Both the position numbers and the translations under genes were made by a program. A stretch of DNA of 32,715 bases. Source: a virus. The notes below the pieces were generated by a model. That model did no database searches, was not told the DNA's origin, and saw nothing but the letters and a program-made list of their open reading frames with translations. Shown here one piece after another: positions 1,401 to 18,970 of the stretch; position 1 is the stretch's first letter; each line of letters begins with the position of its first letter. The stretch lies in the IMG/VR virus record IMGVR_UViG_3300035388_000086, positions 1 to 32,715 of that record; one strand, 5' to 3'.

Positions 1401-3545
1401 ATGACCGCATTAGTAGCAGAATCGCAGGTTGCAGAATCCATGAACATCGGGACAAAGGCCGTCAGGTTGAAAGCGATGGAGGATAACTGGCCGGTGATGA
1501 AAAAACAAAAACAGGGTGGGAGTGAGTTGTTTTTTATCCGGGATCTTTTACCAGTGAAGATCCAGGCCGGTTTGGTGATCCGAGATTCTGTGACAGGTAA
1601 TGCCGGTTTTCCTGCCGTTATCCATGACACACCGGTGCCCAAGCGATCGAACAAAATCGGCCTGGCCAAGTACAACCTGGTCCATGCCTTCCGGATTTCT
1701 AAAGAACAGGCAGGATGGGGGAAAAAGGGTCAGGCCGCAAAGGCGTTTCTTTTTGCCTACAATGCCGGGTTACTGCTGCCAAAAATTTATGCAGTTGTGG
1801 GTGAGATCCAGGAGAAGAGCATTGAGGCTCTGGATAAAAAGCTACGGAACAATGATGATAATTACCTGGCACTTTGCGATGGCCGGGGGGGATGGAAGAT
1901 GCACGGCACAAATAAATACAAGGGCCGGAAGTTGTCTGAAGCGGCCAAGGCCGTTTTCCTAAAATGCTACCTGCATGGTGCCAGACCGAGTGTGATCATG
2001 GCAATAAAGATGGCGAGGCTCACCATGGAAGAAAAAGGGATGCCGGAAAATGTGGCTGACAGCACATTCCGGCGCTGGCTAAAGGATTATGAAAAATACA
2101 ATGCCGGGGTTATCTGCCTGGCAAGGGATGGAATGAAAATGTATCAGGACAAGTATGGTCCTTATATTACAAGGGATGCCAGTTTGTTGAAAGTGGGTCA
2201 ATGCCTGGTTGCAGACGGCAAAACCTTGAATTTTAAAATCATTCATCCCGAGACTGGGATGCCATGCAGGATGACTTTAATTGTCTTTTTTGACTGGGCA
2301 TCACGGTATCCATGCGGGTGGCATATTATGCCGTCAGAGGATCAGTACGGTATCTTGAGTGCGTTTAGAAATGCGGCTCAAGCCCTGGGCAAATATCCTG
2401 ATGCTGTATATCTCGACAATGGGCGAGCGTTTAAGTCTAAGCTTTTCACAAAAACTGATCCTGATTTTTCAGAAATGACAGGGTTATACGCCAGGGTGGG
2501 AACGGCTGTGATGTTTGCCAAGCCCTACAATGGCCGAGCCAAGGTTGTTGAGCGATTTTTCAAGACCTTTCAGGGTCAGCTTGAATTCATGATGCCCTCT
2601 TATTGCGGTGATTCCATCCAGACAAAACCGCCCTGGATGCACAGGAATGAAAAATTCCAAAAGGCCTGGCATGAAGCCCGGACCCAAAACTGGGTGCCAA
2701 ATATTCGTGAAGCTGCCTTGATAATTGATCGGTATTTTCAATGGTATGGACAACAACCCCATGCAGATCTGCCTGCTCCTCCTGCTGATATTTTCCTGCC
2801 CAACCGGGGACCGGGTATTGATCCGATACAGCTTAATTATGATTTTTTGTTGCGAAAAGAGGTTTTACCACACCATTGCCGGGTAAGATTATGGAAGATT
2901 GATTATGAATCCGACTGCCTTCATAACTTGAGCAGCAAGGAACCCATATGGGCAGCAGTTGACACCGCAGATTTAAGAAAAATATGGTGCTATACGAAGG
3001 ACGGTATCTATCTTGGAGAAGCCTTTCCGGTTCAAGCATGCCATCCCTTGGCCCGATTGTTTGGCGATCAGGTTGCCCTTGATCATGTCATATCTGAAAA
3101 CAAACGCCAGGCCCGCCTTGCCAAGAATACAAAGAAGCAACTGGAAGACATAGGCATTGACAAGAATGCCCAGGACAGCCTGAATATTCTGTCATTTTCG
3201 GCCAATAGAGAGAAAACACCTATCCTGCCATCCCCCGGTAAGACAAGTAAAAATCAAACGTCAGGGGTTTCACAAGAGAAGCTTTCTGACAAAGAGACCA
3301 AACGGCTTGAGTTGATTACAAAAAAAGCTGAGGCGGAAAATGAGGTTGAGGTTGATATCCCCCGCCCTAAATATTGGGCATCCGGCCTGGAACATTATGA
3401 ATGGGTTTTCAGGTTGATTCATGAGCATGGCCGGGAACCCGAGAGAGTGGATGGAATATTCATGGAACAATTTGAATCCCTTCCGGAGTTTGAGACTTAC
3501 CGGCAGCGGTTTGAAGATTTAAAAATGGTCTTTGACCTTAATTAA
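1401..3545 (+). CDS. MuA-type DDE transposase
   Basis: This is the 714-residue transposase that joins phage ends to target DNA during integration and replicative transposition. Residues about 1-65 match the N-terminal Mu-type helix-turn-helix that binds end or enhancer sites. The central rve/RNase H-like core shows the catalytic triad D272 (in VADGKT), D339 (in YLDNGR) and E384 (in VVERFF), spaced 67 and 45 residues; MuA uses D269, D336 and E392. A beta-barrel-like region follows, and the C-terminal part (about 560-714) is charged, as in the MuA segment that contacts MuB. The ATG has a strong ribosome-binding site (AGGAGGAG). The MuB-like ATPase gene follows after 11 bases, as in Mu. All catalytic residues are present, so it should be active. 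Confidence 0.96.
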   Translation: MTALVAESQVAESMNIGTKAVRLKAMEDNWPVMKKQKQGGSELFFIRDLLPVKIQAGLVIRDSVTGNAGFPAVIHDTPVPKRSNKIGLAKYNLVHAFRISKEQAGWGKKGQAAKAFLFAYNAGLLLPKIYAVVGEIQEKSIEALDKKLRNNDDNYLALCDGRGGWKMHGTNKYKGRKLSEAAKAVFLKCYLHGARPSVIMAIKMARLTMEEKGMPENVADSTFRRWLKDYEKYNAGVICLARDGMKMYQDKYGPYITRDASLLKVGQCLVADGKTLNFKIIHPETGMPCRMTLIVFFDWASRYPCGWHIMPSEDQYGILSAFRNAAQALGKYPDAVYLDNGRAFKSKLFTKTDPDFSEMTGLYARVGTAVMFAKPYNGRAKVVERFFKTFQGQLEFMMPSYCGDSIQTKPPWMHRNEKFQKAWHEARTQNWVPNIREAALIIDRYFQWYGQQPHADLPAPPADIFLPNRGPGIDPIQLNYDFLLRKEVLPHHCRVRLWKIDYESDCLHNLSSKEPIWAAVDTADLRKIWCYTKDGIYLGEAFPVQACHPLARLFGDQVALDHVISENKRQARLAKNTKKQLEDIGIDKNAQDSLNILSFSANREKTPILPSPGKTSKNQTSGVSQEKLSDKETKRLELITKKAEAENEVEVDIPRPKYWASGLEHYEWVFRLIHEHGREPERVDGIFMEQFESLPEFETYRQRFEDLKMVFDLN

Positions 3546-3556
3546 AAGGAGATTGC

Positions 3557-4279
3557 ATGAAAAACACATTTATTGAAACCAGCCGGGTAACGGCATTCTG
3601 GACCGCAGTAAAAGCGGTGTCGGACATGGAAAAAGGCCATCCGGGTATGATGCTGGCCTGGGGATATGCCGGACGCGGGAAAACAGAGTGTGCCAGGACC
3701 TATGCCATCAGGAATAAAAATGCTGTTTATATCCGGGTTTTTGAGGACTGGACACCCAAGGCGATGTTATCGAGCATCTGCGAAGGGTTGAACGGGATGA
3801 GGCCCGGGCAGACCCATATTGCCAAACGCATTATCATTGAAGAGGTGGATAATAGCGACAGAATCCTCCTTATTGATGAGGCGGACCGGCTGACTGTCAA
3901 AAACATTGAGCATTTACGCGATATCCATGATGAAACGGCATGCCCCATTGTCCTGATCGGTGAGCCCAGTATCTATGCCCAGATAAAATCACGGACAAGA
4001 ATCTGGCGGCGCTTCACCCAGGCGGTTGAGTTTGGACCGCTGCTGGATGAAGATGTCATCCTTTTCGGCCTTAAAAACTGCGATATCAAAATCGTCCCGG
4101 AAGCTGCCAGGGCTCTGAAGAGTAAAAGCAAGGGCAGCTTCGGGTTTTTGATTCATTATATGTCCAGGTTAGAGGGAATTGCCAAATCCAACCAGATAAA
4201 AGAAATCTCTCTGGATATCGTCAATGACCTGCCGGACGATCTGCTTCCAAAACCAAAGTCAGAAAGGTTCTTAAAATGA
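3557..4279 (+). CDS. MuB-type AAA+ ATPase, target-DNA activator
   Basis: A 240-residue ATPase. In Mu, MuB polymerises on DNA in an ATP-dependent way, chooses target sites, stimulates the MuA transposase and gives target immunity. The sequence shows Walker A at residues 36-43 (GYAGRGKT), Walker B at 103-108 (ILLIDE, acidic pair D107/E108) and an arginine-rich segment after it that could supply sensor/finger residues (around RTRIWRRF). MuB of Mu is about 312 residues; this one is shorter because it lacks the N-terminal helix-turn-helix extension. It follows the transposase by 11 bases with the ribosome-binding site AAAGGAG, and its end overlaps the next gene by four bases (ATGA), so the genes are translationally coupled. 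Function by family and position is well supported. Confidence 0.93.
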   Translation: MKNTFIETSRVTAFWTAVKAVSDMEKGHPGMMLAWGYAGRGKTECARTYAIRNKNAVYIRVFEDWTPKAMLSSICEGLNGMRPGQTHIAKRIIIEEVDNSDRILLIDEADRLTVKNIEHLRDIHDETACPIVLIGEPSIYAQIKSRTRIWRRFTQAVEFGPLLDEDVILFGLKNCDIKIVPEAARALKSKSKGSFGFLIHYMSRLEGIAKSNQIKEISLDIVNDLPDDLLPKPKSERFLK

Positions 4280-7254: not shown

Positions 7255-7576
7255 AACCAAACTACTGTCCAAAGGAGTTCTGGCGCGCATTGTGGATCAC
7301 TTCAGACCCATTCCACTTACGGATGATGTCCTTGCTAAAGTATTGTGTTTTGAAATGTGTATTGAAGTGAAAAAGATCCCCGGCAAGCAGGAGAAGCTTG
7401 AAAAAAAAATCAAGGCCATGCGGGTGACATTCAGATCTTCGCAAAAAAGGATCGACGCCTACAACAAATTGACCGAACAATACAACCGTATAGGGAATCG
7501 TGGCAGGAGCCTTTTGAAATCAATTGAAGAAATTGAAACCGAATATCCTGATCTGAAAAAAGGAGATACCACATGA
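7244..7576 (+). CDS. Small coiled-coil early protein, unknown
   Basis: A 110-residue basic protein. The start at 7244 is preferred because AAAAAAAGGGAAC lies before it; upstream in-frame ATGs fall inside the preceding gene. Residues about 40-75 and 85-105 form long charged helices (heptad-like Lys/Glu), so an oligomer or coiled coil is likely. No recognised family. It ends in an ATGA overlap with the activator gene that follows, so both are translated together. Confidence 0.62.
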   Translation: MKIETKLLSKGVLARIVDHFRPIPLTDDVLAKVLCFEMCIEVKKIPGKQEKLEKKIKAMRVTFRSSQKRIDAYNKLTEQYNRIGNRGRSLLKSIEEIETEYPDLKKGDTT

Positions 7577-8016
7577 ACGGCTCTCCCAAAGAAAAACAAT
7601 TAACGCTCTTTGATTCCGGGGTAATGTCAGCATCACAGGTGCTGGACGGCATGAACCAGGATTTGAGGAATGATGCCCGGACCTGGCCCAGCCTGTTGGC
7701 AGAGCTTGTGGATGTGCTGGCTGATCATTACCAGGACAGGGAAAAGGCCAATGAAGAAAAGGCCATGGCCATGGCCCAGGATGTCATCGTGGTCATTGCC
7801 CATCACCTGGGCGGCCGGAGCGTGTACCTTCCCCGGGATGACAGGCTCAAACGGGCAATCCGGGATTCAATGATCCACAGGGCATTTGACGGGACCAACC
7901 ATCTGGCCCTGGCCAGGAGGGCTGGACTGACAACAACACAAATTTATAACATCATTGAGAGACAGCGTCGGCTTCGCCAGGACCGACTCCAGATGAAACT
8001 GCCGTTTCCTGAATAG
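7573..8016 (+). CDS. Mor/C-family transcription activator
   Basis: A 147-residue protein of the Mor/C family (Mu Mor is 129 and Mu C is 140 residues). It switches on middle or late phage promoters by binding a palindrome upstream and contacting RNA polymerase. The family signature is visible: a helical N-terminal dimerisation region (about 20-78), then GGRSVYLP (residues 80-87), the beta strand whose equivalent in Mor touches DNA, then a helix-turn-helix at about 108-130 (TNHLALARRAGLTTTQIYNII). Mu has two such proteins in series (Mor, then C); only one is present here. It is the last gene of the early operon. Two matching palindromes before the late operons (11255-11268 and 17937-17950) are its likely targets; that link is inference. 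Confidence 0.92.
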   Translation: MNGSPKEKQLTLFDSGVMSASQVLDGMNQDLRNDARTWPSLLAELVDVLADHYQDREKANEEKAMAMAQDVIVVIAHHLGGRSVYLPRDDRLKRAIRDSMIHRAFDGTNHLALARRAGLTTTQIYNIIERQRRLRQDRLQMKLPFPE

Positions 8017-8191: not shown

Positions 8192-8638
8192 ATGGATATT
8201 AAAATAATTCAAAATTATGTTTCAAAAGCTCGAAGAATAATTGAGACCAACCTCAAAGTTTTTATTTTAAAACAACCAGCTGTTTTTGAAGCCTTCCCAA
8301 AAGGGACTTGCGGCGTAACAAGCGAGATTATTGGAACGTGGCTTATTTCAAAAGGAATTGAAGGGGTAGAATATGTAAATGGCAAAAGATGGCGAAAGGG
8401 GCGCCATGAGACTCATGGATGGTTAGAAATTGATGGCCTGATAATCGATATTACCTCTGACCAATTTAAGCCAGATGGATTGGGGCCTGTTTACATTGGA
8501 AGCGATAGAAAATTCCATGATACGTTTCAAAATCAGCAACACAAAATGCCCAATCTTTCATTTGTTTCAAGCGATGTATACCCGTCCTTTTTAGAATTAA
8601 TGAGACACTTTGAGACAGATTTACAGGAACCAAAATAA
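8192..8638 (+). CDS. Transglutaminase-like Cys/His/Asp protein (accessory)
   Basis: A 148-residue cytoplasmic-looking protein. The motifs suggest a papain/transglutaminase-type fold: C40 at the start of a helix (PKGTCGVTSEIIGTWL), H75 in 'ETHGWLEIDG' and D86 in 'IIDITSDQF'. That Cys, His, Asp order with a strand on each side is the usual transglutaminase-core layout, and the length fits a minimal single-domain member. It could be a peptidase, amidase or acyl/aminotransferring enzyme; the substrate is unknown. The gene is AT-rich unlike the phage backbone and has its own upstream promoter, so it looks recently acquired. The ribosome-binding site is AAAGAGG. A role in host fitness or defence is possible but not shown. 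Confidence 0.68.
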   Translation: MDIKIIQNYVSKARRIIETNLKVFILKQPAVFEAFPKGTCGVTSEIIGTWLISKGIEGVEYVNGKRWRKGRHETHGWLEIDGLIIDITSDQFKPDGLGPVYIGSDRKFHDTFQNQQHKMPNLSFVSSDVYPSFLELMRHFETDLQEPK

Positions 8639-8639
8639 T

Positions 8640-8676
8640 ATACAAACAGCAGGCCCGGCAAGGCCCCTGTGTATTC
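8640..8676. other. GC-rich imperfect inverted repeat in AT-rich region
   Basis: Between two accessory genes lies a short GC-rich island with paired arms (ACAG..GGCC against GGCC..CTGT, flanked by ATAC and GTAT). It stands out from the AT-rich surroundings. It may be a weak hairpin terminator or a leftover of phage backbone sequence; no T run follows. Confidence 0.35.
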
Positions 8677-8718
8677 TAAAGAAGGAAGGTGGCGTTTATT
8701 AAAGGAGATGAACCAACC

Positions 8719-9399
8719 ATGAAATTATTTAAATTTAAAAAAAACGACAACAACGACCTACCTTATATTTTGGACATTATAGTAAATAAACGGATTTTTC
8801 TATCTACCTCAGACAGTATGAATGATCCAGATGAAGGTCGTTGGAAACGCGAAGGTGAAGGTGAAGATGAGTACCAATGGGGAGACCTTCCAGGAAATTA
8901 TTTCGAATTAAAAAAACGGTTACATGATCGAGTTGATAAACAGAGATTCACTTGCTTCGTTGAAAACATCAACAACCCTTTAATGTGGGCTCACTATGCC
9001 GGAGGATTTCGGGGTGTCGCATTTGAATTTGAAATAGATGAGAATGTACATGATTTGAGAAAAATTAAATACGAAGGAATTCCTGTAGTTTCACAATTAC
9101 AGATTGAAAAAGTTCTTTCTGATAAGTCGTCGCCTCAGGATATAGGGATTCTAAAACAAAAAGCACGATGTTGGATATATGAAGATGAGTGGCGGCTATA
9201 TGGAAAATCAGATGATAAGTATGTAAACAAGATCCAATTGAAATCCGTAATATTGGGATTTAAAGACAATAAAGCCCACGATGTCCTACAAAAGATAATC
9301 AGAAAATTTGGTATTCGGCTCGGGTATTTGAGCCAAAGAAAAAATCAAGAATACTTTATTGAATATGTTGATGCCTATTCGAAAGAGTCAACTTATTAA
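8719..9399 (+). CDS. DUF2971 family protein (accessory)
   Basis: A 226-residue protein of the DUF2971 family. Family marks are an N-terminal 'KLFKFKK' strand, 'FLSTSDSMNDPDEG' (the conserved asparagine-aspartate-proline turn), 'NPLMWAHYAGGFRGVAFEF' (the hallmark W-x-H-Y-A followed by a glycine) and 'ARCWIYEDEWRLYG' (the conserved E-x-E-W-R region). The fold and activity are unknown in my knowledge; members are common in accessory islands and prophages. I chose the ATG at 8719 because AAAGGAG precedes it and the family usually starts with this strand; an in-frame GTG at 8689 is possible. It is AT-rich like its neighbours and is probably cotranscribed with the previous gene. Confidence 0.85.
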   Translation: MKLFKFKKNDNNDLPYILDIIVNKRIFLSTSDSMNDPDEGRWKREGEGEDEYQWGDLPGNYFELKKRLHDRVDKQRFTCFVENINNPLMWAHYAGGFRGVAFEFEIDENVHDLRKIKYEGIPVVSQLQIEKVLSDKSSPQDIGILKQKARCWIYEDEWRLYGKSDDKYVNKIQLKSVILGFKDNKAHDVLQKIIRKFGIRLGYLSQRKNQEYFIEYVDAYSKESTY

Positions 9400-9751
9400 T
9401 ATAATAACGTTCTCCTGAAAAATTAAGCTTCTCGACTTGATCGAAAATCAGGTTGATTATGTAATAACCTCCCTGTGGCAAATTTCCAGACAGGAAGGTT
9501 AGTCTCCAATATAGGTTAATGGAGTATTGATCAACTTGATTCTTCTCATTCTCATATAATTGATTTTTAAATCTGTGAATAAAAAATTTGTTTATACCAG
9601 ATGCAGCATTCTGGAAATATTTAAAAAGCCAGAACTGGAGAAAGAAGAGCTCTGTAATTTTTCTGCATCGGGCATTGAGAAATAAAAAATATAGATATTT
9701 AACTTAATAGGTAGTACAAGAATTCGGAATGATTCATTTATAGGAAAAACC
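9400..9751. other. AT-rich intergenic region, 352 bases
   Basis: This gap holds a hairpin (9466-9500), a perfect TATAAT at 9555-9560 without a good -35 at normal spacing, and a short GTG-started frame (9575-9685, 36 residues, ending 'ASGIEK') that has no ribosome-binding site but reads like real protein. That frame may be a remnant of a deleted gene. A smaller dyad (CCAGA..TCTGG) lies at 9597-9614. I see no RNA gene. Confidence 0.5.
9466..9500. repeat. Inverted repeat/hairpin after the DUF2971 gene
   Basis: Arms 9466-9476 (AACCTCCCTGT) and 9490-9500 (ACAGGAAGGTT) pair over 11 positions with one mismatch around a 13-base loop. No T run follows, so it is either a weak or factor-assisted terminator, or an operator. 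It lies 67 bases after the stop codon. Confidence 0.55.
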
Positions 9752-10918
9752 ATGATAACTAATATTCAATTTCTACGTGCTTTTGCAGCAATGTCCATAG
9801 TTCTTTATCATACAGCATTTCTTTTGCCTGGTAATATCCATACTGAATTTCAAGGAGTTGCTATTTTTCTTGTTATTAGTGGCTTTACCATTAGTTATAC
9901 TGCAAATAATAATCCAATAGGTTTTTTTTATCGTCGGGTAATTCGCATAGTTCCTCTCTATTGGATTGCGACCTTAAGTTGTGTGTTGTGGCTAAGTTTA
10001 CCAACTATAATACAGATTTATATGATAATAGGAATCTGTTTAATTTATCTTGCAGGAAAATATTTATTAAAATCGAGAAGCAAATATACCGCTATTATAA
10101 AAGATAAATGCTATATTTTATTAGGGTGCTTTATCTTATTATTTATTTTAGCTCTTGTTTATTTATGGATAGGTACAGTTCATAAAAATTTCGTTATTTT
10201 CCTACTAAAGAGTTTATTTTTTATCCCAGCTCTTGATATTAATGGTGATTTACATCCTCTTCTTGGCGTTGGCTGGATTCTTAATTTACAAATGTTTTTT
10301 TATTTTGTATTTGCGATTACTCTTTTTGCAGGGAAATACCTTGCGCCAATCTTGACCATCTTAGTATTAATAACAATAAAAGTTCTCTATTTAACAGGAA
10401 TATTTACTAATAATTATTTTAAGTTTTATTCGCACGACTACGCTATATTTATTATCTTAGGAATAATTTTGAATTATGCATTCGTTTACTTCAAGGGTAA
10501 GATTATATCAAAGAAATTGTCGATTACATTACTGTTTGTTGCTATATCATATTTATTATTGATTAACCTTGCGCGAGAATACATATATCCTTTTTGGGGA
10601 AGTCATTATGTCGGACCAGTCATTCTTGTTGGAGCAGCTCTGATATGTCATTCAGCGGGCGTTCAATGTAGCTGGAGGATTGCCATTATTTTAGGGAATG
10701 CTTCTTATTCTCTATACCTTCTTCACACAATAATCATAGAAACTCTACGTCGAGGAATAGCAATATACCCTGTTCTTGATTTTTCACATAATATATTTGG
10801 GTTATTAGTGGTATTCTTGATAGCTATCCCTGTCTCAATTGTAAGTTATAATTATTTAGAGCTTACAATTCAAAAGGGATTAAAAGATTTAGGCAAGAGA
10901 ATGGTAAATATCATATAG
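9752..10918 (+). CDS. Membrane O-acyltransferase (acyltransferase 3 family)
   Basis: A 388-residue integral membrane protein of the acyltransferase 3 family (OafA/OacA-like), which moves an acetyl or similar acyl group onto cell-surface sugars. It has about ten hydrophobic segments. The family motif R-x10-H is present exactly as R9 and H20 (FLRAF...LYHT) in the first segment. 'FFYRRVIRIVPLYWIA' (about residues 58-73) is the second family motif. The length is that of single-domain members without the extra SGNH domain. It is strongly AT-rich, and upstream DNA has no strong ribosome-binding site other than AGGAAAA. In phages, such genes alter the O-antigen and block adsorption of related phages (serotype conversion); that role here is inference. 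Confidence 0.93.
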   Translation: MITNIQFLRAFAAMSIVLYHTAFLLPGNIHTEFQGVAIFLVISGFTISYTANNNPIGFFYRRVIRIVPLYWIATLSCVLWLSLPTIIQIYMIIGICLIYLAGKYLLKSRSKYTAIIKDKCYILLGCFILLFILALVYLWIGTVHKNFVIFLLKSLFFIPALDINGDLHPLLGVGWILNLQMFFYFVFAITLFAGKYLAPILTILVLITIKVLYLTGIFTNNYFKFYSHDYAIFIILGIILNYAFVYFKGKIISKKLSITLLFVAISYLLLINLAREYIYPFWGSHYVGPVILVGAALICHSAGVQCSWRIAIILGNASYSLYLLHTIIIETLRRGIAIYPVLDFSHNIFGLLVVFLIAIPVSIVSYNYLELTIQKGLKDLGKRMVNII

Positions 10919-11304
10919 CCTCCAAAAACTAATCCATCTTCAAATAGCGTTCTTACTTCTTTTTTTATTTCTCAAAGTATGGTTGCTTATAATATTGGAG
11001 GACGGTAATCCAATCAGCTGTCACTAAACGGATAACAAGATTTCATTTAGTAGAAATACAAAATCAATAAAAATATTTTATAACAAATTGTTACACAGGG
11101 CACTAACAGATGGCTTTGGGGGTTACACTATACGATATAGGTAAGAAACAGCAGTATAAGCCATTTCCCCAAATTTTTTTTATAATATATTAAATTCCCC
11201 CTGGACGGTTTATCCCGGGCCGCCCAATCTTCCTTCCCTTCCTTCCCCCATTAATTCAAACACTTGAAACCCACCCCGCCAAGCCCATATGAAAGTATGC
11301 GGCC
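10919..11304. other. Intergenic region before the first late operon, 386 bases
   Basis: There is no convincing gene. The first half is AT-rich like the cassette. At 11115-11121 and 11167-11173, TTTGGGG and CCCCAAA can pair, the latter followed by eight Ts (11173-11180): a long-loop terminator candidate for the acyltransferase gene. A TATAAT lies at 11181-11186 without a -35. From about 11190 the base composition returns to that of the phage backbone. A polypyrimidine tract runs from 11229 to 11249, and the activator-type palindrome at 11255-11268 follows. Confidence 0.5.
11255..11268 (+). promoter_or_regulatory. Palindromic activator site, Plys-like late promoter
   Basis: TTCAA-ACAC-TTGAA. 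The same palindrome (TTCAA-ACGC-TTGAA) lies before the second late operon. In both cases the ATG begins exactly 36 bases after the palindrome, with TAT at the same place (11296-11298 here). No Shine-Dalgarno precedes the ATG. If the centre (between 11261 and 11262) is at -43.5, the position I recall for the Mor dyad at Mu Pm, transcription would begin on the ATG itself. This would be the counterpart of Mu Plys. Predicted, not tested. Confidence 0.6.
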
Positions 11305-11754
11305 ATGTATGAAGAAACCGTAGACATAATCCTTACCCGGCTGCGCCGGTCCGACCAGGGCACTGAAGGTATCTTCAGTATCCCCGGGTTGCATTTCTCC
11401 TGTCCTTGCCTGGAGTTGCCGTGGCGGGAAAACAGGTCCAATGTGTCCTGTATCCCGCCCGGCACCTATCCTTTGGTATGGCGGGAATCCAAAAAGTGGA
11501 AAGCCTTCCACATCCAAAACGTCCCGGACAGATCTTTTATCCTCATCCATTCCGGCAATTTTGCCGGGGATGTGACTAAGGGGTGGAAAACCCATGTCCA
11601 TGGCTGCGTTATCCTTGGATCGAAATCCGGCCGTATAGGCGGACAAAAGGCAGTGCTGGCATCAAGGCCTATGGTGAGACGGTTTAACATAATTTTGAGG
11701 GGCAGAAAGGCCCGCATAACCATCAAAGAACAATGGAGGCAGGAAAATGCTTGA
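11305..11754 (+). CDS. DUF5675 family protein, first gene of the late operon
   Basis: A 149-residue protein of the DUF5675 type. The family marks are an opening beta strand (IILTRL), 'CLELPWRENRSNVSCIPPGTYPLVW' in pieces (the E-x-P-W, then C-I-P-x-G-x-Y), and a later 'ILIHSGNFAGDVTKGW' and 'HGCVILG' part. Conserved histidine, cysteine and glycine residues suggest a catalytic fold related to YkuD-like or cell-wall enzymes, although the activity has not been established to my knowledge. In Mu the lysin gene occupies this place, so a lysis role is possible. No other endolysin is recognisable in the window. The start has no Shine-Dalgarno and is likely leaderless. The end overlaps the next gene by eight bases. 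Confidence 0.8.
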   Translation: MYEETVDIILTRLRRSDQGTEGIFSIPGLHFSCPCLELPWRENRSNVSCIPPGTYPLVWRESKKWKAFHIQNVPDRSFILIHSGNFAGDVTKGWKTHVHGCVILGSKSGRIGGQKAVLASRPMVRRFNIILRGRKARITIKEQWRQENA

Positions 11755-12397
11755 AGGATTGTTGGGTAATCTTGCCACCGGGGGATTTCTCGGGGGCATT
11801 ACAGGTCTGGCCGGGACCATTTGGTCCAGCTATAACAAACGCAAGCTGGCAGAGCTGGAAATGGTGGATCGGGATAAACAGCGGTCCCATGACGTGGCCA
11901 TGGTCCAGGCAGAATCAGATGCCATGATTGCAGAATCCAAGGCCCAAATTGAAGTGGTCGGTGCCAGAGTGTCAGGAGCGGTCGAGCTTGCCGAGACAGC
12001 GGCCTTTACAGAAAGCCTGGAAGCCGGGCGGATTCGGTCCTTTGATTCTTCATATATGGATCGGCTTTTTGCTGTTGAGGGCTGGCTCCGTTTCTTTTCA
12101 GTCCCTGCCGGTGTGCTGCTTGCTATTTTTTTTGGCCTTGTTGATTTTATCAAAGACATGGCCCGGCCCGGGATCACATTCTACCTTTTGGGTATCAGCA
12201 CCTGGATTACCATCAAAGCCTGGAAACTCTTGGATAAATTCAATGGATCTCAAATTACGGCCACCATGGCCACAAATATTATTTCCGATGCCATAGGGGT
12301 GATCTTTTACCTGACAGTGACCTCTGTGACCTGGTGGTTTGGGGATCGTATGGCCGCTAAGGGTATGGCTAAAAATTTAAAACTCCGGAGTTTGTAA
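11747..12397 (+). CDS. Holin-like membrane protein
   Basis: A 216-residue protein with a glycine-rich hydrophobic N-terminus (about residues 10-27), a long charged helical region (about 30-100, coiled-coil-like) and three hydrophobic segments at about 115-135, 142-160 and 182-199. The segments and the position right after the DUF5675 gene suggest a holin or other lysis membrane protein, but no holin family is certain. The ATG has a strong ribosome-binding site (GGAGGCAGG) and lies inside the end of the previous gene. A proline-arginine pair before the second segment (MARPG) is typical of three-segment holin-type proteins. An alternative role is a membrane protein in superinfection exclusion. 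Confidence 0.65.
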   Translation: MLEGLLGNLATGGFLGGITGLAGTIWSSYNKRKLAELEMVDRDKQRSHDVAMVQAESDAMIAESKAQIEVVGARVSGAVELAETAAFTESLEAGRIRSFDSSYMDRLFAVEGWLRFFSVPAGVLLAIFFGLVDFIKDMARPGITFYLLGISTWITIKAWKLLDKFNGSQITATMATNIISDAIGVIFYLTVTSVTWWFGDRMAAKGMAKNLKLRSL

Positions 12398-12604
12398 ATG
12401 GATGAAGGTGACCGGGGCAATATCAGCGCAGATAGGTTTCAAAAAGAGGCCCTTGCCCGTCAATTAAACCGGTCGGCTCAAGGAGAATCATTGACCGAGT
12501 GTGAAGACTGCGGAGAGCCAATTCCGGAAGGTCGGAGAAAGGCAGTACCGGGCTGTGTTCGGTGTGTCATATGTGAGACTAAATTTGAAAGGAAATCATG
12601 GTAA
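12398..12604 (+). CDS. DksA/TraR-family C4 zinc finger protein
   Basis: A 68-residue protein with the zinc finger of the DksA/TraR family: C-x2-C in ECEDCGEPIPEGRR and C-x2-C in 'GCVRCVICE'. DksA-type proteins bind in the RNA polymerase secondary channel and alter promoter choice; small phage versions keep mainly the zinc finger and a short helix. The ATG begins directly after the previous stop. Its end overlaps the next gene by seven bases. Its place among lysis-side late genes is common in Mu-like phages. Whether it changes host transcription is not known. Confidence 0.85.
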   Translation: MDEGDRGNISADRFQKEALARQLNRSAQGESLTECEDCGEPIPEGRRKAVPGCVRCVICETKFERKSW

Positions 12605-12936
12605 ATCCAAAAACTGATTATGCGGCCTGGCGGTTCTGGTTTGATGTTGGTCAATATATCATTGCCTTTCTTGTCGGCTTTTATGTGTGGTTCAGCAACC
12701 GGGCAAAAGCCACGGATAAAGATGTGAAAATTGTCGAAAAAACCATGGGCGGTATTGAGAGCCGGGTCACCAAGTTAGAAACCGGTTCGATTTCCCATGA
12801 CGACCTTGGAAAAGTGTATGAGCGTGTCAATGGTATAGCGGTCCAGGTATCCAACCTGGACGGCAAAATGGATGGAGTAAAGGGTGCTGTGGATATGATT
12901 AATGAACACCTGTTGAACAATGGAGGAAAAGGATGA
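12598..12936 (+). CDS. DUF2730/Mu gp25-like membrane-anchored coiled-coil protein
   Basis: A 112-residue protein with one N-terminal membrane segment (about residues 14-33, FDVGQYIIAFLVGFYVWF) and a coiled-coil tail (about 40-105). This layout and its place between the lysis genes and gp26 match Mu gp25 (DUF2730). The topology is like a spanin or Rz inner-membrane subunit (N-in, helix in periplasm), so a function in lysis is possible; I do not see a separate lipoprotein (Rz1) partner. The gene ends by overlapping the next one by four bases (ATGA). Confidence 0.8.
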   Translation: MVNPKTDYAAWRFWFDVGQYIIAFLVGFYVWFSNRAKATDKDVKIVEKTMGGIESRVTKLETGSISHDDLGKVYERVNGIAVQVSNLDGKMDGVKGAVDMINEHLLNNGGKG

Positions 12937-13229
12937 GCTATCAAGAAACACTTCAAAAGCATCTAAGGATAACGCTTTTACGGCTTTTGCTGGATGACCC
13001 GAGATATACGATGAACGATTCAATGCTTAAGGACCTGACAGAGGATTATGGTCATACGCCAAGCCGTGATAAGACCCGCACGGAACTTGCCTGGCTTAAA
13101 GAACAAGGCCTGATCACAATCGATGGTGATTCCGGTGTTCTTATTGTGACGCTCACCGAGCGCGGGGCTGATGTGGCCCAGGGCCGGGCAACGGTCCCGG
13201 GAGTCAAACGTCCTTCCCCCAGGAGCTGA
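12933..13229 (+). CDS. Mu gp26-like winged-helix protein
   Basis: A 98-residue protein with a winged helix: helices (LRITLLRLLLDDP, MLKDLTEDYG), then the recognition helix 'SRDKTRTELAWLKEQGL' and a wing with 'VLIVTLTERGADVAQG'. This is the pattern of Mu gp26-type proteins (VpaChn25_0724 family), always found just before the terminase small subunit. The role is unknown; DNA binding is expected. Strong ribosome-binding site (GGAGGAAAAGG). The gene is followed, almost without gap, by the small terminase gene. Confidence 0.85.
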   Translation: MSYQETLQKHLRITLLRLLLDDPRYTMNDSMLKDLTEDYGHTPSRDKTRTELAWLKEQGLITIDGDSGVLIVTLTERGADVAQGRATVPGVKRPSPRS

Positions 13230-13230
13230 T

Positions 13231-13791
13231 ATGAAATCCTCAAAAAACCGACCAAGCCGGGGCCGTCCATCAAGCATAGACCTTTTGCCGGAAGATATCC
13301 GGCTTCAGCTTAATGAAGCCCTGCGTGACCGACGCTTGACCCAGAAGGAAATCCGGCAGGCCATCAATGAACTGCTTGAAAAGCGTGGTAAAACCCCTGT
13401 TTCAAGAAGTGCCATTAACCGCTACTCCATACACGTAGAAGAAAAGGGCTCCATGATGAGAGAGGCCCGGGAAGCGGCTGACGCATTGGTGGGGGGATTG
13501 AAGCAAGATGGCACTGATCTTGGTCAAGCTGTGACTGAGATGATGAAGACCATAATTTTCGATAGAATCCTCAACAACGGAGAGGACATTGATGAGGATG
13601 CCATCAATAAGCTCTCTCTTGCAGCTCAGAGAATTGAAAACGCCAGCAAAATCGGTGAGGAACGCAAAGAAAAACTCCGACGCCAGGCCATTGAAGAGGC
13701 TGCCGATACTGTTGAAGAAACCGCCATCCAAAGCGGCATGAATGAAGAACAGGCCCAGCTCTGGCGTGAAAAGGTATTGGGGATTAAATGA
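13231..13791 (+). CDS. Terminase small subunit (Mu gp27-like, DUF3486)
   Basis: A 186-residue protein that matches DUF3486/Mu gp27. I chose the ATG at 13231, one base after the previous stop, because AGGAG precedes it; an in-frame upstream start at 13171 lies inside the previous gene. The N-terminus (SKNRPSRGRPSSIDLLPEDI) followed by a helix-turn-helix (TQKEIRQAINELLEKRGK, SRSAINRYS) fits DNA recognition, and the rest is helical for oligomerisation. It would recognise the phage end so that the large subunit can start headful packaging from integrated copies. It ends with an ATGA overlap on the large terminase gene. Confidence 0.93.
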   Translation: MKSSKNRPSRGRPSSIDLLPEDIRLQLNEALRDRRLTQKEIRQAINELLEKRGKTPVSRSAINRYSIHVEEKGSMMREAREAADALVGGLKQDGTDLGQAVTEMMKTIIFDRILNNGEDIDEDAINKLSLAAQRIENASKIGEERKEKLRRQAIEEAADTVEETAIQSGMNEEQAQLWREKVLGIK

Positions 13792-15434
13792 GTTTACCCG
13801 GCGATACCATAAGAATTTTAGATTGGGAAGAGCTGCCAGCAAGCGTCCGGGAGATCCCCAAAGATCATAATCCTCTTGCAGATGGGATTTTGATGCAGCA
13901 CCAGGTGGACTGGTGCAAGCAGATCCACGATTATTTCCTGAACATTGCAGAAAAAGGAAGGCGGACAGGTATCACCTATGCTACGGCCCTGGACGATACT
14001 ATCACCGCTTCCAGCAACCGGTCTGCTGGCGGGGATAATTGTTATTATGTGGGGGATACCAAGGAAAAGGGCCTGGAATATATCGGCTATGCCGCCCACA
14101 TGGCAAAAGTCATGGCCTCATCCATGGCCAAAGGCTGGGGCGGGATTGAGGTCTTTTTGTTTGAAGACCAGGACAAGGATGGCAACACACGACAGATCAC
14201 GGCCTACCGGATCCGTTTTGCATCCGGGTTCCAGATGGTGGCCCTGTCTTCCAACCCAGCCAATATTCGTGGCCTCCAGGGCATTGTCAATATTGACGAG
14301 GCTGCCTTTCACAAAGATGTCGGTGCGGTCATTGAGGCTTGCCTGGCCTTGATCATCTGGGGCGGTAGAATCCGGATCATCTCCACCCACAACGGTGTTA
14401 AAAATCCATTCAATCAGCTTATCCTTGATTCACTGGCAGGTCTTTATGCGTTCAAGGTCTTCCACGTCACCTTTGACGATGCCGTTAAAAACGGCTTGTA
14501 CGAAAGGGTCTGCATGGTCAAGGGATGGACCCCGACAGCTCAAGGCAAAAAGGAATGGTATGAACTGGTCCGAAAAGGATACGGCACCCGGCGTGCAGCC
14601 ATGCTGGAAGAACTGGATGCTATCCCCAGAGAAGGTTCCGGCGTGGCCATCCCCGGTGTCCTGGTGGAAGGGTGTATGCCTGAAGAGCGGCCCATTCTTC
14701 GCCTGGCCATGGAGGATGATTTTCTTTTAAGGGATCTGGCTTACCGGGATTCATGGATTGAGGACTGGATCAGGATACATCTTGACCCGTTGCTTGAGAT
14801 GCTCAACCCGGACCTTGAATATGTATTTGGTTCTGACTATTCCCGGTACTGCGATTTTGCATCCTTCGGTCCCATGGCCATTGAGCAGAACCTGACCCGG
14901 AAGGTGCCCTGGATGCTTGAAATGCACAATGTACCCACCCGGCACCAGCAACAAATTATTTTTCATATTATCCGGCATCTGCCCAGGTTCCGATGCGGGG
15001 CCATGGATGCCACGGGTAACGGCTTTACCCTGGCCGAGTATTGTGCTGATGAGTTTGGTTATGATGTGATCATTATGGTTAAGTTCAACGACAAATGGTA
15101 CCGGGAAAATATGGAGCCCTTTGTCCAGGCATTTGAGGACAAGACCATTGATCTGGGAAAAGATGCGGATGTGAAAAACGATATACGTGCCCTGGAGCGT
15201 ATTGACGGGGTGGTAAAACTGCCCAAACTCAGACAGGCGGACACCAAGGATTCCGGCTTAAAACGCCATGGTGATGCTGCCATTGCTTTGGCCTTGGGAT
15301 GGTTTGCATCCCTAAGCGACGTGGAGTCCTTTGGCTATATTCCGGTTAAACATGTAGTCGGGCCGGACCATGACGCAATCGACCGGCCTGTCAGAATCAC
15401 GGCAGGCTTTGGCCGCAAAGGAGGTATTTTATAA
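13788..15434 (+). CDS. Terminase large subunit (Mu gp28-like)
   Basis: A 548-residue DNA-packaging motor. The ATPase half has a variant Walker A at about residues 56-63 (KGRRTGIT, in place of GxxGxGK[ST]; Mu gp28 has a similar form) and Walker B at 166-171 (D170, E171 in VNIDEA). The nuclease half is RNase H-like with acidic residues D350 (in GSDYSR), D407 (in MDATGNG) and D496 (in RHGDAA). It cuts the phage DNA with host flanks and pumps it into the prohead via the portal. Length and order (gp27, gp28, gp29) are those of Mu. The last base of the stop is the first base of the portal start. Confidence 0.96.
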   Translation: MSLPGDTIRILDWEELPASVREIPKDHNPLADGILMQHQVDWCKQIHDYFLNIAEKGRRTGITYATALDDTITASSNRSAGGDNCYYVGDTKEKGLEYIGYAAHMAKVMASSMAKGWGGIEVFLFEDQDKDGNTRQITAYRIRFASGFQMVALSSNPANIRGLQGIVNIDEAAFHKDVGAVIEACLALIIWGGRIRIISTHNGVKNPFNQLILDSLAGLYAFKVFHVTFDDAVKNGLYERVCMVKGWTPTAQGKKEWYELVRKGYGTRRAAMLEELDAIPREGSGVAIPGVLVEGCMPEERPILRLAMEDDFLLRDLAYRDSWIEDWIRIHLDPLLEMLNPDLEYVFGSDYSRYCDFASFGPMAIEQNLTRKVPWMLEMHNVPTRHQQQIIFHIIRHLPRFRCGAMDATGNGFTLAEYCADEFGYDVIIMVKFNDKWYRENMEPFVQAFEDKTIDLGKDADVKNDIRALERIDGVVKLPKLRQADTKDSGLKRHGDAAIALALGWFASLSDVESFGYIPVKHVVGPDHDAIDRPVRITAGFGRKGGIL

Positions 15435-16978
15435 TGGAAAAAAGTCGTCTTTACGGGCCGGATGGTAAACTCTTACCCAAGCGAGAATTAACCCAGGAAG
15501 TGGCTGCCCCGACATTGATGGGCATTCGTTCTGTCTGGGGATATGGATCGGCAGCGGACGGGCTGACCCCGGCACGCCTGGCCACCATTCTGCACGATGC
15601 AGCAGAAGGCAATACCTGGGATTATCTGACCCTGGCTGAGGAAATGGAAGAACGGGATCTGCATTATGCCAGTGTCCTTGGCACCCGGAAAAGAGCGGTA
15701 TCCGGCCTTGAGGTCATTGTGGAGGAGGCATCCGAAGACAAGGAAGATGTCAAGATTGCAGCGGCCGTCCGGGAACTGACCCGGAAATCTGGATTCGGGG
15801 AGGCGGTTGATGATCTTCTGGATGCCATTGGCAAGGGATATTCTGCGGTGGAAAACATGTGGCAGACCGGAGCTGCATGGATACCCAAATATGAATGGCG
15901 GGATCCCCGTTTTTTTGTGTTTGATGAAAACGACGGCAAAACCCTCCGGCTGATGGATGAAAGCCACCACAACGGTATTGAGCTGCCCCCGTTTAAATTT
16001 ATCATCCACATTCCCAGGATTAAATCCGGCCTGCCTATCCGAGGTGGCCTGGCCCGGCTGGCAGCGGTCAGCTATATGTGTAAATCCTATACGCTTAAAG
16101 ACTGGATGGCCTTTGCAGAGGTGTTCGGCATGCCCTTGCGGGTCGGTCGCCACAAACCTGGTGCCCTGGAAAAGGATATCAATACCCTGATAAAGGCGGT
16201 TGCCAATATCGGCAGCGATGCGGCTGCCGTGCTGCCGGACAATATGCGGATTGAATTTATTGAGGCGGGCAAATCAACAGGCGGGGAAAAGCTGTTTTCC
16301 GGCCTGGCAGAATGGCTGGACCGGCAGGTTTCTAAGGGTGTCCTGGGCCAGGTGGCAAGTACAGAAGGCACCCCGGGCAAATTGGGCAACGATGGTGCCC
16401 AGGAAGATGTGAGAAAGGATATCCTGAAAGCGGATGCGAAGGCTCTGGGCAATACCCTTAGCCGGGATTTGGTCATTCCCTTTGTGGATATCAATTATGG
16501 AAAGCGGGACAAGTATCCCAGGATCCTTTTGCCGGTTCCGGAACCAGAGGATCTAAAAGCCCTGACCCTGGCTTTGAAGGAACTGGTCCCCCTGGGGATC
16601 AAAGCACCGGCAAACTGGGCCAGGAAAAAATTTAACATTCCGGATCCGGTGGAGGGGGAAGAACTTCTGGCAGAGATCCAGACACCTAAACCTGCCACGG
16701 CAGAAAACAGATCCCTTTCATCGGCTATGAACCGAACAGCCACGGACACATCGGATGAACTGGAAGAACTGGCCGATGGAATGTCTAAAGACTGGAAGCC
16801 GGTGATGGAACCTATTATCAACCCGGTCCTGGAACTGGCAGATCAGGCAGAATCCTACGAAGAATTTTTGAAGGGCCTGCCCGGGCTTTTGACCGAGATG
16901 GACCCCCAAACACTGATTAAAAAACTTGCCCGGGCAACCTTCACGGCCAGGGGTATGGGGGATGCCACAGATGGTTGA
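15434..16978 (+). CDS. Portal protein (Mu gp29-like, DUF935)
   Basis: A 514-residue portal of the DUF935 family, the ring at one capsid vertex through which DNA passes. Features are 'LTPARLATILHDAAEGN' near the start, the 'AEEMEERDLHYASVLGTRKRAV' region, and 'KGYSAVENMW' followed by the 'RDPRFFVFDE' strand, all typical of this family. A long C-terminal helical part (about residues 400-514) is more variable, with an acidic stretch. The ATG overlaps the large terminase stop. The C-terminal end overlaps the head morphogenesis gene by 17 bases. Confidence 0.94.
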   Translation: MEKSRLYGPDGKLLPKRELTQEVAAPTLMGIRSVWGYGSAADGLTPARLATILHDAAEGNTWDYLTLAEEMEERDLHYASVLGTRKRAVSGLEVIVEEASEDKEDVKIAAAVRELTRKSGFGEAVDDLLDAIGKGYSAVENMWQTGAAWIPKYEWRDPRFFVFDENDGKTLRLMDESHHNGIELPPFKFIIHIPRIKSGLPIRGGLARLAAVSYMCKSYTLKDWMAFAEVFGMPLRVGRHKPGALEKDINTLIKAVANIGSDAAAVLPDNMRIEFIEAGKSTGGEKLFSGLAEWLDRQVSKGVLGQVASTEGTPGKLGNDGAQEDVRKDILKADAKALGNTLSRDLVIPFVDINYGKRDKYPRILLPVPEPEDLKALTLALKELVPLGIKAPANWARKKFNIPDPVEGEELLAEIQTPKPATAENRSLSSAMNRTATDTSDELEELADGMSKDWKPVMEPIINPVLELADQAESYEEFLKGLPGLLTEMDPQTLIKKLARATFTARGMGDATDG

Positions 16979-17780
16979 TGGATATCATCCGGGGCCGGTG
17001 CCCAAGGAGGCCCTGGAGTATTTCAGGGCCAAGGGCTGGAAGATCGGTTTTGACTGGCGGGATGTGTGGCAGACTGAGCATGCCAATGCCTTTACCGTTG
17101 CCAAGGCTACAGAGATGGATCTGCTGGAAGATATCCGGACGGCTGTGGACAAGGCCATTGAAAATGGAGAAACCTTTCAGCAGTTCCGCAAGCAGCTTGA
17201 GCCGATTTTAAAAAAGAAAGGCTGGTGGGGCATAAAGGATGTAGTGGATCCTAAGACAGGAGAAACCGTCCAGGCACAACTGGGATCTCCCAGGCGGCTT
17301 AAAACCATTTACCGGGCCAACATGAGAACAGCCCGGGCAGCCGGGCAATGGGACCGGGCGCAGCGGACTAAAAAATACCGACCCTTTTTTGTATATTCCC
17401 TGGGGCCGTCCCGGGTTCACCGGGATCTGCATTTGTCCTGGAACGGCATTGTCCTGCCTGTTGATCATGAATTTTGGAATAGTCATTTCCCGCCCAACGG
17501 CTGGGGGTGCAAGTGCCGGATCCGGCAGATCAGCCAGCGGGAAGCCGAACGTCTGGGCGGTGTGACCCAAGCCCCGGTGATCCAGATGCAGGAATGGAAA
17601 AACAAACGAACCGGAGAAACAGTCTTTATCGCCCAGGGCATTGATCCGGGCTGGGATTATAATCCGGGCAAGGGCCGGGACAAAAATTTGAGCAATATCC
17701 TGGAGGATAAATTTAAATCCGCTCATCCCGACGATGCCGAGGCAGCAAAAAAAATCTGGCAGGAGAAACCCAAGAAATAG
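16962..17780 (+). CDS. Head morphogenesis protein (Mu gpF/gp30-like)
   Basis: A 272-residue member of the SPP1 gp7/Mu F head morphogenesis family. The motif block is visible: 'KTIYRANMRTARAAGQW' (about residues 110-126), then 'HRDLHLSWNGIVLPVDHEFW', 'HFPPNGWGCKCRIRQIS' with its Gly-Trp-x-C-x-C core, and 'GFDWRDVW'-like text at the start. The family protein is packaged in the prohead and needed for DNA packaging/ejection. I chose ATG 16962 because the text 'MPQMVDGYHPG...KEALEYF' fits the usual family start; ATG 16971 and a TTG at 16926 are alternatives. It is the last gene of the first late operon; 206 bases follow. Confidence 0.92.
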   Translation: MPQMVDGYHPGPVPKEALEYFRAKGWKIGFDWRDVWQTEHANAFTVAKATEMDLLEDIRTAVDKAIENGETFQQFRKQLEPILKKKGWWGIKDVVDPKTGETVQAQLGSPRRLKTIYRANMRTARAAGQWDRAQRTKKYRPFFVYSLGPSRVHRDLHLSWNGIVLPVDHEFWNSHFPPNGWGCKCRIRQISQREAERLGGVTQAPVIQMQEWKNKRTGETVFIAQGIDPGWDYNPGKGRDKNLSNILEDKFKSAHPDDAEAAKKIWQEKPKK

Positions 17781-17828
17781 CCAAAATTTATCTATACAAG
17801 CCCTGGGTCATGCCATTATCCATAGTAA

Positions 17829-17862
17829 GGCCTGATTAGTCCGTAAAATTGATTTTCAGGCC
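17829..17862. repeat. Inverted repeat between the two late operons
   Basis: GGCCTGA (17829-17835) and TCAGGCC (17856-17862) are perfect 7-base arms with a 20-base loop, 48 bases after the gpF-like gene. T-rich DNA follows about 12 bases later (TTTTACTCTTTTCC). It may be a weak terminator of the first late operon, or part of a regulatory structure. The rest of this short gap contains only the palindrome at 17937-17950. Confidence 0.4.
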
Positions 17863-17936
17863 ATTCACCGTATAGTTTTACTCTTTTCCTTTATCGCAAT
17901 CGCGCATTTCAGTGTTAAAAACCCCAGATCGTTATT

Positions 17937-17950
17937 TTCAAACGCTTGAA
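17937..17950 (+). promoter_or_regulatory. Palindromic activator site, PI-like late promoter
   Basis: TTCAA-ACGC-TTGAA, differing from the site at 11255-11268 only at one centre base. The ATG at 17987 begins exactly 36 bases after it, the same distance as at the first late operon, and TAT (17978-17980) lies at the same place. There is no Shine-Dalgarno before the ATG (TCTATACCGGC precedes it). This fits an activator-dependent promoter with a leaderless transcript, at the place of Mu PI, before the protease gene. Confidence 0.6.
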
Positions 17951-17986
17951 ATACCTCTTTCCTCCCCACCTGGTATCTATACCGGC

Positions 17987-18970
17987 ATGGATAAGAAAAC
18001 TTTAAAAATTGCCTTGAACATCCGGCTGCCTGAAGACGGCACCCTGCCAGACTGGGTGGAGCTGATACCTGCCGGTGAACTTGTCATTGGACGAGACGGC
18101 CGCAAATGGATCAACCCCACCCCTGACCAGGTGGTGGCTGCTTTCGATTCAAACGGTGCTGATCTTCCCATTGACTGGGAACATGCCACCGAAAAAAAAG
18201 CACCCAAGGGGGAGCCAGCACCGGCAGCGGGATGGATAAAGCAAATGGAAGTTAGGGACGGGGCTATCTGGGGCAGAATCGAATGGACGGATAAGGGGAC
18301 CGATGACGTGGAAAACAAGCGATACCGTTATCTGTCACCTGTTTTTGTCTATACCCTGCAAAATCGCAGGATTGTCCGGATCACATCGGCCGGGCTGACC
18401 AACCAGCCCAACCTGCACCTTACGGCCCTTAATCAGGAAGAAACCCAAACTAAGGAGAACGGTATGGATTTACTCAAAGCCATCTGCCAGGCCCTGGGGC
18501 TTACAGACGGTACAACCGATGAACAAGCGTTTGCCAAAGTGACCGCCATGAAAGGGGACCTGGCCACGGCACAGAACCGGGCCGAGACCCCGTCCCTGGA
18601 AAAATTTGTTCCGCGTGGTGATTATGATGCGGCCACAACCCGCGCAACCAACGCAGAACAAAAGCTCAAGGATCAGGAAGCCAAGACCCTGGGCGATGAG
18701 ATCGACACAGCCATCAACCAGGCACTGACAGACGGTAAAATCACCCCGGCCAGCAAGGACTATCACATGGCACAGTGCCGGACAGAGGGCGGACTGGACA
18801 GATTCAAGGAATTTGCGAAAGCAGCTCCGGCAATGGCCCAGGACACGGACCTGAAAGACAAGGATCTGAATCAGAACAAAGGATCTTTGACAACTGAGGA
18901 TAAGGCGGTTTGCCAGCAATTGGGCATTCCTGAAGATGAGTATCTCAAAAGTAAAAAGGAGATCAAATAA
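17987..18970 (+). CDS. Prohead protease with fused scaffold domain (Mu gpI-like)
   Basis: A 327-residue protein like Mu gpI. The N-terminal 150 residues are the protease that cuts scaffold and capsid precursors during head maturation. The core 'DLPIDWEHAT' (H66) and the strand 'YRYLSPVF' (S117) are the conserved parts; I cannot confirm the catalytic residues. The C-terminal half, after about residue 160, is helical and charged, as scaffold domains are. I chose ATG 17987 because it aligns with the first late operon at the same distance from the palindrome, and it fits family starts; an in-frame start at 17912 would lie upstream of the palindrome. The final base overlaps the capsid gene start. 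Confidence 0.92.
   Translation: MDKKTLKIALNIRLPEDGTLPDWVELIPAGELVIGRDGRKWINPTPDQVVAAFDSNGADLPIDWEHATEKKAPKGEPAPAAGWIKQMEVRDGAIWGRIEWTDKGTDDVENKRYRYLSPVFVYTLQNRRIVRITSAGLTNQPNLHLTALNQEETQTKENGMDLLKAICQALGLTDGTTDEQAFAKVTAMKGDLATAQNRAETPSLEKFVPRGDYDAATTRATNAEQKLKDQEAKTLGDEIDTAINQALTDGKITPASKDYHMAQCRTEGGLDRFKEFAKAAPAMAQDTDLKDKDLNQNKGSLTTEDKAVCQQLGIPEDEYLKSKKEIK
18464..18970 (+). CDS. Nested scaffold protein from internal start (Mu gpZ-like)
   Basis: Inside the protease gene, AAGGAG at 18452-18457 stands six bases before an in-frame ATG at 18464 (codon 160). Translation from there would give a 168-residue, helical, glutamine/alanine-rich protein equal to the scaffold half of the longer product. 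In Mu the same arrangement (gene Z inside I) makes scaffold in larger amount than protease. The strong ribosome-binding site inside a gene whose own start has none supports this. The longer product is initiated without any Shine-Dalgarno, so the ratio of the two could be set there. Based on sequence and the Mu precedent; not shown experimentally. Confidence 0.75.
   Translation: MDLLKAICQALGLTDGTTDEQAFAKVTAMKGDLATAQNRAETPSLEKFVPRGDYDAATTRATNAEQKLKDQEAKTLGDEIDTAINQALTDGKITPASKDYHMAQCRTEGGLDRFKEFAKAAPAMAQDTDLKDKDLNQNKGSLTTEDKAVCQQLGIPEDEYLKSKKEIK

Follow-up and report, generated by a model that had tools for sequence, protein, structure and literature searches.

The virus record IMGVR_UViG_3300035388_000086 of IMG/VR, whose full 32,715 bases form the window analysed here, has a Mu-like gene layout in which the first gene of each of two late operons, at the lysis and head positions, is probably expressed from a Mor-type-activated mRNA that is leaderless or nearly so (a leader of up to ~5 nt). 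This is the best reading of the sequence evidence, and we give it a probability of roughly 0.8. In the mechanism that we propose, two palindromes, at the lysis and gpI/head promoters, would be recognised by the Mor-type activator that the phage itself encodes. Bound ~43-44 bases upstream, the activator would guide the polymerase of the host to a -10 hexamer that is weak and often of the extended kind. This hexamer ends 6-7 bases before the ATG, implying that the transcript would begin at, or a few bases from, the A of the ATG. Each late operon would thus have its first gene translated from a leaderless mRNA, and its later genes by way of ordinary Shine-Dalgarno (SD) sequences. The site, its spacing, the absent SD, the conservation and the recurrence in other lineages are established by sequence; from these we infer Mor binding, the exact start point and initiation of the leaderless (5'-AUG) type.

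The palindrome TTCAA-N4-TTGAA occurs at 11255-11268 (TTCAAACACTTGAA, where Mor is predicted to bind at the lysis-operon promoter) and at 17937-17950 (TTCAAACGCTTGAA, likewise for the head operon), and these are the sole exact matches in the 32.7 kb. Seven matches with one mismatch are present, compared with 2.27 expected, a number reached in 0 of 100 shuffles, and only the two exact copies show the gene-preceding arrangement. Each palindrome is followed at a distance of exactly 36 bases by an ATG, at 11305 and 17987 respectively, with TAT at offset 28-30 in both cases. The initial annotation had described this arrangement correctly, including the lack of an SD: the predicted duplexes with the anti-SD amount to -0.8 and -2.9 kcal/mol, compared with a window median of -7.55, and of 42 starts these two pair with the anti-SD more weakly than any except a doubtful TTG start, ranking second and third from the bottom. 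Its further statement that nearly all other genes have strong SDs goes a little too far, as some ten of them have weak to moderate ones. No in-frame start upstream of the ATG at 11305 was found in the window, nor any third late promoter of the same geometry, and the N-terminus of gpI as read from the ATG at 17987 is conserved among relatives.

The genes that begin at these ATGs lie, as had been proposed, at places that match Mu Plys and PI. The first gene of the lysis-position operon (11305-11754, plus strand) belongs to the DUF5675 family (Pfam, 1.9e-27), and the first gene of the head operon (17987-18970, plus strand) encodes the gpI protease/scaffold (Pfam Mu-like_Pro, 3e-67), with gpT starting at 18970; each gene is predicted to have its ATG begin at +1. 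Both are downstream of a single gene for a Mor/C-family late transcription activator (7573-8016, plus strand; Pfam Mor 3e-26, PHROG late transcriptional activator 8.7e-34), whose PDB matches are 9l0x and 9vw8 (C) and 1rr7/9l0y (Mor). Since PF08765 has one match in the record, this is the sole Mor/C-family gene, and all eight records that have such a gene have just one.

Between palindrome and ATG, a putative extended -10 element is present at each promoter. For gpI it consists of TGG followed by TATCTA (17971-17979, plus strand), 7 nt before the ATG, at the same place as in relatives and as the peak of the survey described below. For lys it consists of TGA followed by AAGTAT (11290-11298, plus strand), placing the hexamer at -12 to -7 if the A of the ATG is +1; relatives carry TGA+TTTAGT, TGA+TGTAGT or TGA+TTTAAG here.

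The geometry can be compared with that of phage Mu, for which we derived start points from the oligonucleotide designs in PMC4461284. The fragments carrying the Mu promoters of lys, I and P extend 20 nt past the S1-mapped start (PMC4461284, Table 1), which places the ATAA half-site 37 nt from the start (36 if +1 lies outside the 20) and the hexamers TAGACT, CAAACT and TATCCT 7 (6) nt before it. At Mu Pm the Mor dyad spans -51 to -36, centred at -43.5 (PMC4287176), the position that the initial annotation had given for it and, by correct arithmetic, that of the window palindromes if the A of the ATG is +1. On the same assumption, the window fits Mu within a base or two, according to the way in which the half-sites are aligned. 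The Mu promoters Plys and PI (C-activated) and Pm (Mor-activated) resemble those of the window in their places before lys and I, in the presence of a Mor/C-family activator, in a non-consensus -10 and, if the predicted start of the window holds, in a dyad ~43 bases upstream of the start. Mu differs in having both Mor and C, where the window has one Mor-type protein, and in its leaders: in Mu 20-26 nt, with an SD (AGGGA, AGGA), separate the start from the ATG, whereas in the window the ATG stands at the predicted start with no SD. With the site-to-start distance equal on this assumption, what would set the window apart from Mu is a coding sequence that opens directly at +1.

Relatives were collected through searches with gpI and Mor, and include the Desulfobacteraceae metagenome-assembled genome L005 (Mor 97% identical), the same-order genomes G170, G186, G148 and G214, and IMG/VR contigs. 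Loss of the palindrome or of its 36-base spacing in relatives had been named as a result that would count against the proposal; the arrangement is kept. Fourteen lys or I promoters of this Desulfobacteraceae group have the site, then 35-37 bases, then an ATG with no SD. The lys-side palindrome is conserved in L005, L006, L007, L010, L068, L069 and L070, and the gpI-side palindrome in L005, L008 and L009; in L010 and L058/L070 the gpI-side dyad is weaker. Examples are TTTAAACGTTTAAA in L009 and TTCAAACGCTTAAA in L006, where 6 nt separate CATAAT from the ATG; in L070 (the same as L058) the junction reads TGC-TATCTT-GGCAGC-ATG. The counts, the shuffles and this conservation lead us to reject a chance origin of the palindromes.

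Among more distant gpI relatives the dyads are different and the distance to the ATG is the same. B23 (KY939598) has CCTGAA-N4-TTCAGG, TAATCT or TAGTCT, 6 nt and the ATG; L019 has GGAACGCGTTCC; the D3112-like phages LPB1 and DMS3 have GTTGAACCCCTTC; and L113 (G666) has GGACA-N2-TGTCC. In each of these lineages (B23, L019, LPB1/DMS3, L113) the best second copy of the dyad precedes, by an equal distance, the opening gene of another operon. An automated search for such twins, requiring at least 15/18 identity at equal distance, found them for ~14 of ~80 gpI anchors compared with 6 of 1184 control anchors. Blind searches found none for L112, L028, L010 and L070, though a lys-side site is visible by eye in the last two. 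The first late genes lack homology to one another (B23 and L019 have a holin, DMS3 has PHROG 3648 and the window has DUF5675), and it is therefore the junction that is conserved, not the gene. In 26 of 26 tabulated promoters the gap between hexamer and ATG is 6-7 nt, with a fixed pyrimidine-A at the junction.

Could the palindromes instead be repressor operators or chance repeats, with the late genes read from upstream promoters? A palindrome alone does not separate an activator site from a repressor site. We nevertheless consider this explanation highly improbable, because the distance from site to ATG is kept across unrelated sites and unrelated first genes, because each record has a single Mor/C gene, and because a read-through mRNA would have no SD to use.

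The arrangement is likewise visible in a survey of gpI starts, which took in 80 further gpI loci together with the earlier ones. Starts were assigned blind to promoter features, as the start with the best SD if this was -5 kcal/mol or lower and otherwise as the most upstream ATG, and near-identical upstream regions were removed before counting. The non-redundant set comprises 64 SD-led starts and 49 without an SD. Rows of the survey are related, which weakens the case to the extent that the p-values given here are optimistic, while the contrast between the classes is independent of kinship: NANNNT at -12/-13 is present in 38 of the 49 no-SD starts (background 7%, p 3.7e-34) compared with 4 of the 64 SD-led ones, and C or T at -1 in 45 of 49 compared with 31 of 64 (p 6e-7). 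Palindromes with an N4 spacer (at least 4 of 5 pairs) peak in the no-SD class only, with centres at -44.5 (29%) and -43.5 (12%) and 0-4% elsewhere. All 49 no-SD genes start with ATG, as the definition of the class requires. The survey and the other lineages lead us to reject confinement of the arrangement to the group of the window; it is not a universal trait of Mu-like phages either, given that Mu, martha 12B12, MuM16-2 and the 64 survey members are SD-led. One phage, L023, apparently combines late promoters of the led and the leaderless kind: it has three copies of ATTAGC-N4-GCTAAT/GTTAAT, at 1690, 9940 and 14597, with the -10-like CATCCT, GACGAT and CATCGT at a constant distance, and an ATG at the start point in the gpI copy only.

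Several other observations weigh against leaderless expression in the window and its relatives. The hexamer AAGTAT of the window lys promoter is poor, and the better TATGAA at 11288-11293, at -17, would give a leader of ~5 nt. In L010, L070 and LPB1 the site is an imperfect palindrome. In L002, L036/L071 (amidase) and L052, which have a different gene after Mor, a related site is kept and is followed by a leader and an SD; a conserved site thus does not by itself predict a leaderless gene, and we rejected that rule. Within L071, the start predicted from a site at 3988 coincides with an ATG, and the four-codon open reading frame (ORF; MAFA, stop) that begins there, ahead of the SD-led amidase gene, is possibly a relic or a minimal leader peptide. 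Finally, the hairpins that abut many of the ATGs might conceivably be part of a genuine 5' leader.

The first of these observations bears on the possibility that the promoters are Mor-activated but produce a very short SD-less leader, of ~3-8 nt, and so are not strictly leaderless. The window TATGAA would agree with this, as would L137, with 8 nt from TAAGGT or TAGCAT to the ATG, and start sites are able to wobble by a few bases. Set against it are the uniform gap and the fixed junction of the 26 tabulated promoters, and we judge such a leader to be rather unlikely.

The last observation concerns structures found at both window starts. A predicted hairpin with a GAAA loop (11283-11303, plus strand; -8.4 kcal/mol, z -3.8, 0 of 200 shuffles) ends 1 nt before the lysis-operon ATG, and another, CUGGUA-UCUA-UACCGG (17970-17985, plus strand; -5.5 kcal/mol, z -1.5), ends 1 nt before that of gpI, the latter being weak alone in that 12 of 200 shuffles fold as well. 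Perfect stems of at least 5 bp ending 0-3 bases before the ATG occur at 37% of no-SD starts, compared with 4% in the shuffle null and 2% of SD-led starts. The loop is often the -10 hexamer, as in CCGCC-TAATCT-GGCGG of L019 and GCCGCC-TATCTT-GGCGGC of L144; L172 has a stem CACGCTA-ACG-TAGCGTG abutting its ATG. The sole mismatches in near-perfect stems are G.T in 12 cases, several of them common by descent, and A.C in 3, an excess that points to pairing in the sense RNA.

Such hairpins, together with the missing SD, might be taken to mean that transcription starts 20-30 bases upstream and that the true mRNA has a short 5' leader whose hairpin presents the AUG. The start would then lie within ~20 bases of the activator site, unlike those of Mu Pm and of Mu lys, I and P, and nothing would account for the peak of hexamers at -12/-13 or for the -1 pyrimidine; we regard this as quite improbable. 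If instead transcription starts at the ATG, as in the leaderless reading, the hairpin is confined to read-through RNA. In T4, read-through transcripts of late genes such as e contain hairpins that the late transcript lacks. By analogy, a hairpin with the -10 hexamer in its loop and its stem ending 0-3 bases before the ATG might block the AUG in read-through RNA, and the holin or gpI would then be made solely from transcripts begun at the late promoter. As in T4 e, the hairpin would be present only in RNA coming from upstream; the T4 e hairpin hides an SD, whereas that of the window would abut a leaderless AUG. This proposal would extend the leaderless reading and does not replace it. It draws on the enrichment of stems in the no-SD class, the mismatches that favour sense-RNA pairing, the hairpins at both window starts, and the position of the first late gene, a holin in B23 and L019, after the Mor gene. 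However, the hairpin is absent or weak in L008, L009, L068 and L069 of the window group, the G.T count reflects in part common descent in B23-like phages, and the B23 I hairpin is no more stable than shuffles, so that we put it forward tentatively, at somewhat less than an even chance.

The mRNA of lambda cI is leaderless. Like it, and like the Deinococcus-Thermus genes with a '-10 region adjacent to ORF' (PMC12340547), the window genes have a TANNNT-type hexamer a few bases before the ATG and no SD; they differ in that the window promoters serve late operons of a phage and would depend on an activator. We found no report of leaderless transcripts in Mu-like phages in a literature search that covered few subscription papers, and the available text of the RNA sequencing study of the B3-like phage Fc02 (PMC9936078) gives no start sites. 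The leaderless proposal of the initial annotation is thus supported by the conserved site, the spacing and the recurrence in other lineages, with the start point itself predicted.

Some further features of these genomes were recorded. The window layout comprises an integrase-core transposase, one Mor-family activator, DUF5675 at the lys position, terminase, portal, F-like genes, gpI and gpT, with terminase and portal named by position and from Mu-like relatives. Between Mor and the lysis promoter, at 8192-10918, there are three cargo genes (a weak YunG-like match, DUF2971 and an acyltransferase), some in AT-rich DNA, and this interval varies among relatives. In DMS3 (locus L114, from NC_008717) RefSeq places the start of DMS3-32 (gpI) 126 nt further downstream than the conserved, predicted leaderless ATG at 11501 of the locus, and over this extension the differences from LPB1 fall mostly at third positions; a 115-residue ORF (PHROG 3648) at 2725-3072 of the locus, directly after Mor, is unannotated in the DMS3 record. 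MuM16-2, martha 12B12 and Vibrio 1.028 (L076, L077, L120) all three have a strong SD and an ATG-TAA start-stop mini-ORF upstream of an SD-led gpI. Longer inverted repeats of the GCACAATC...GGTTGTGC type occur in Vibrio, Shewanella and Pseudoalteromonas phages (L118 3190-3236, L077 3590-3640, L076 3560-3605, L119 11200-11236), close before the lys or I start and mostly without an SD. Mor matches split over two frames, at L003 10001-10301 and G186:C27:152788-153091, are apparently decayed copies, and a site at 12311 in L003, within a reading frame resembling DUF5675, was taken as a coincidence.

More broadly, a large and polyphyletic part of the Mu-like phages, including the DMS3-type phages of P. 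aeruginosa, may have activator-dependent leaderless first late genes, in many cases with a -10 hairpin that silences the AUG in read-through RNA, so that translation would require the late promoter to fire at the AUG; in this full form we think the idea possible rather than probable. If true, many transposable phages would make their holins and head proteases by a leaderless route late in infection, and conventional and leaderless initiation may compete at its end. Such a design would also explain the missed or misplaced start codons of these genes in reference genomes. With one activator family serving led late genes in Mu and leaderless ones in B23 or DMS3, these phages would provide a natural system for studying why leaderless mRNAs persist.

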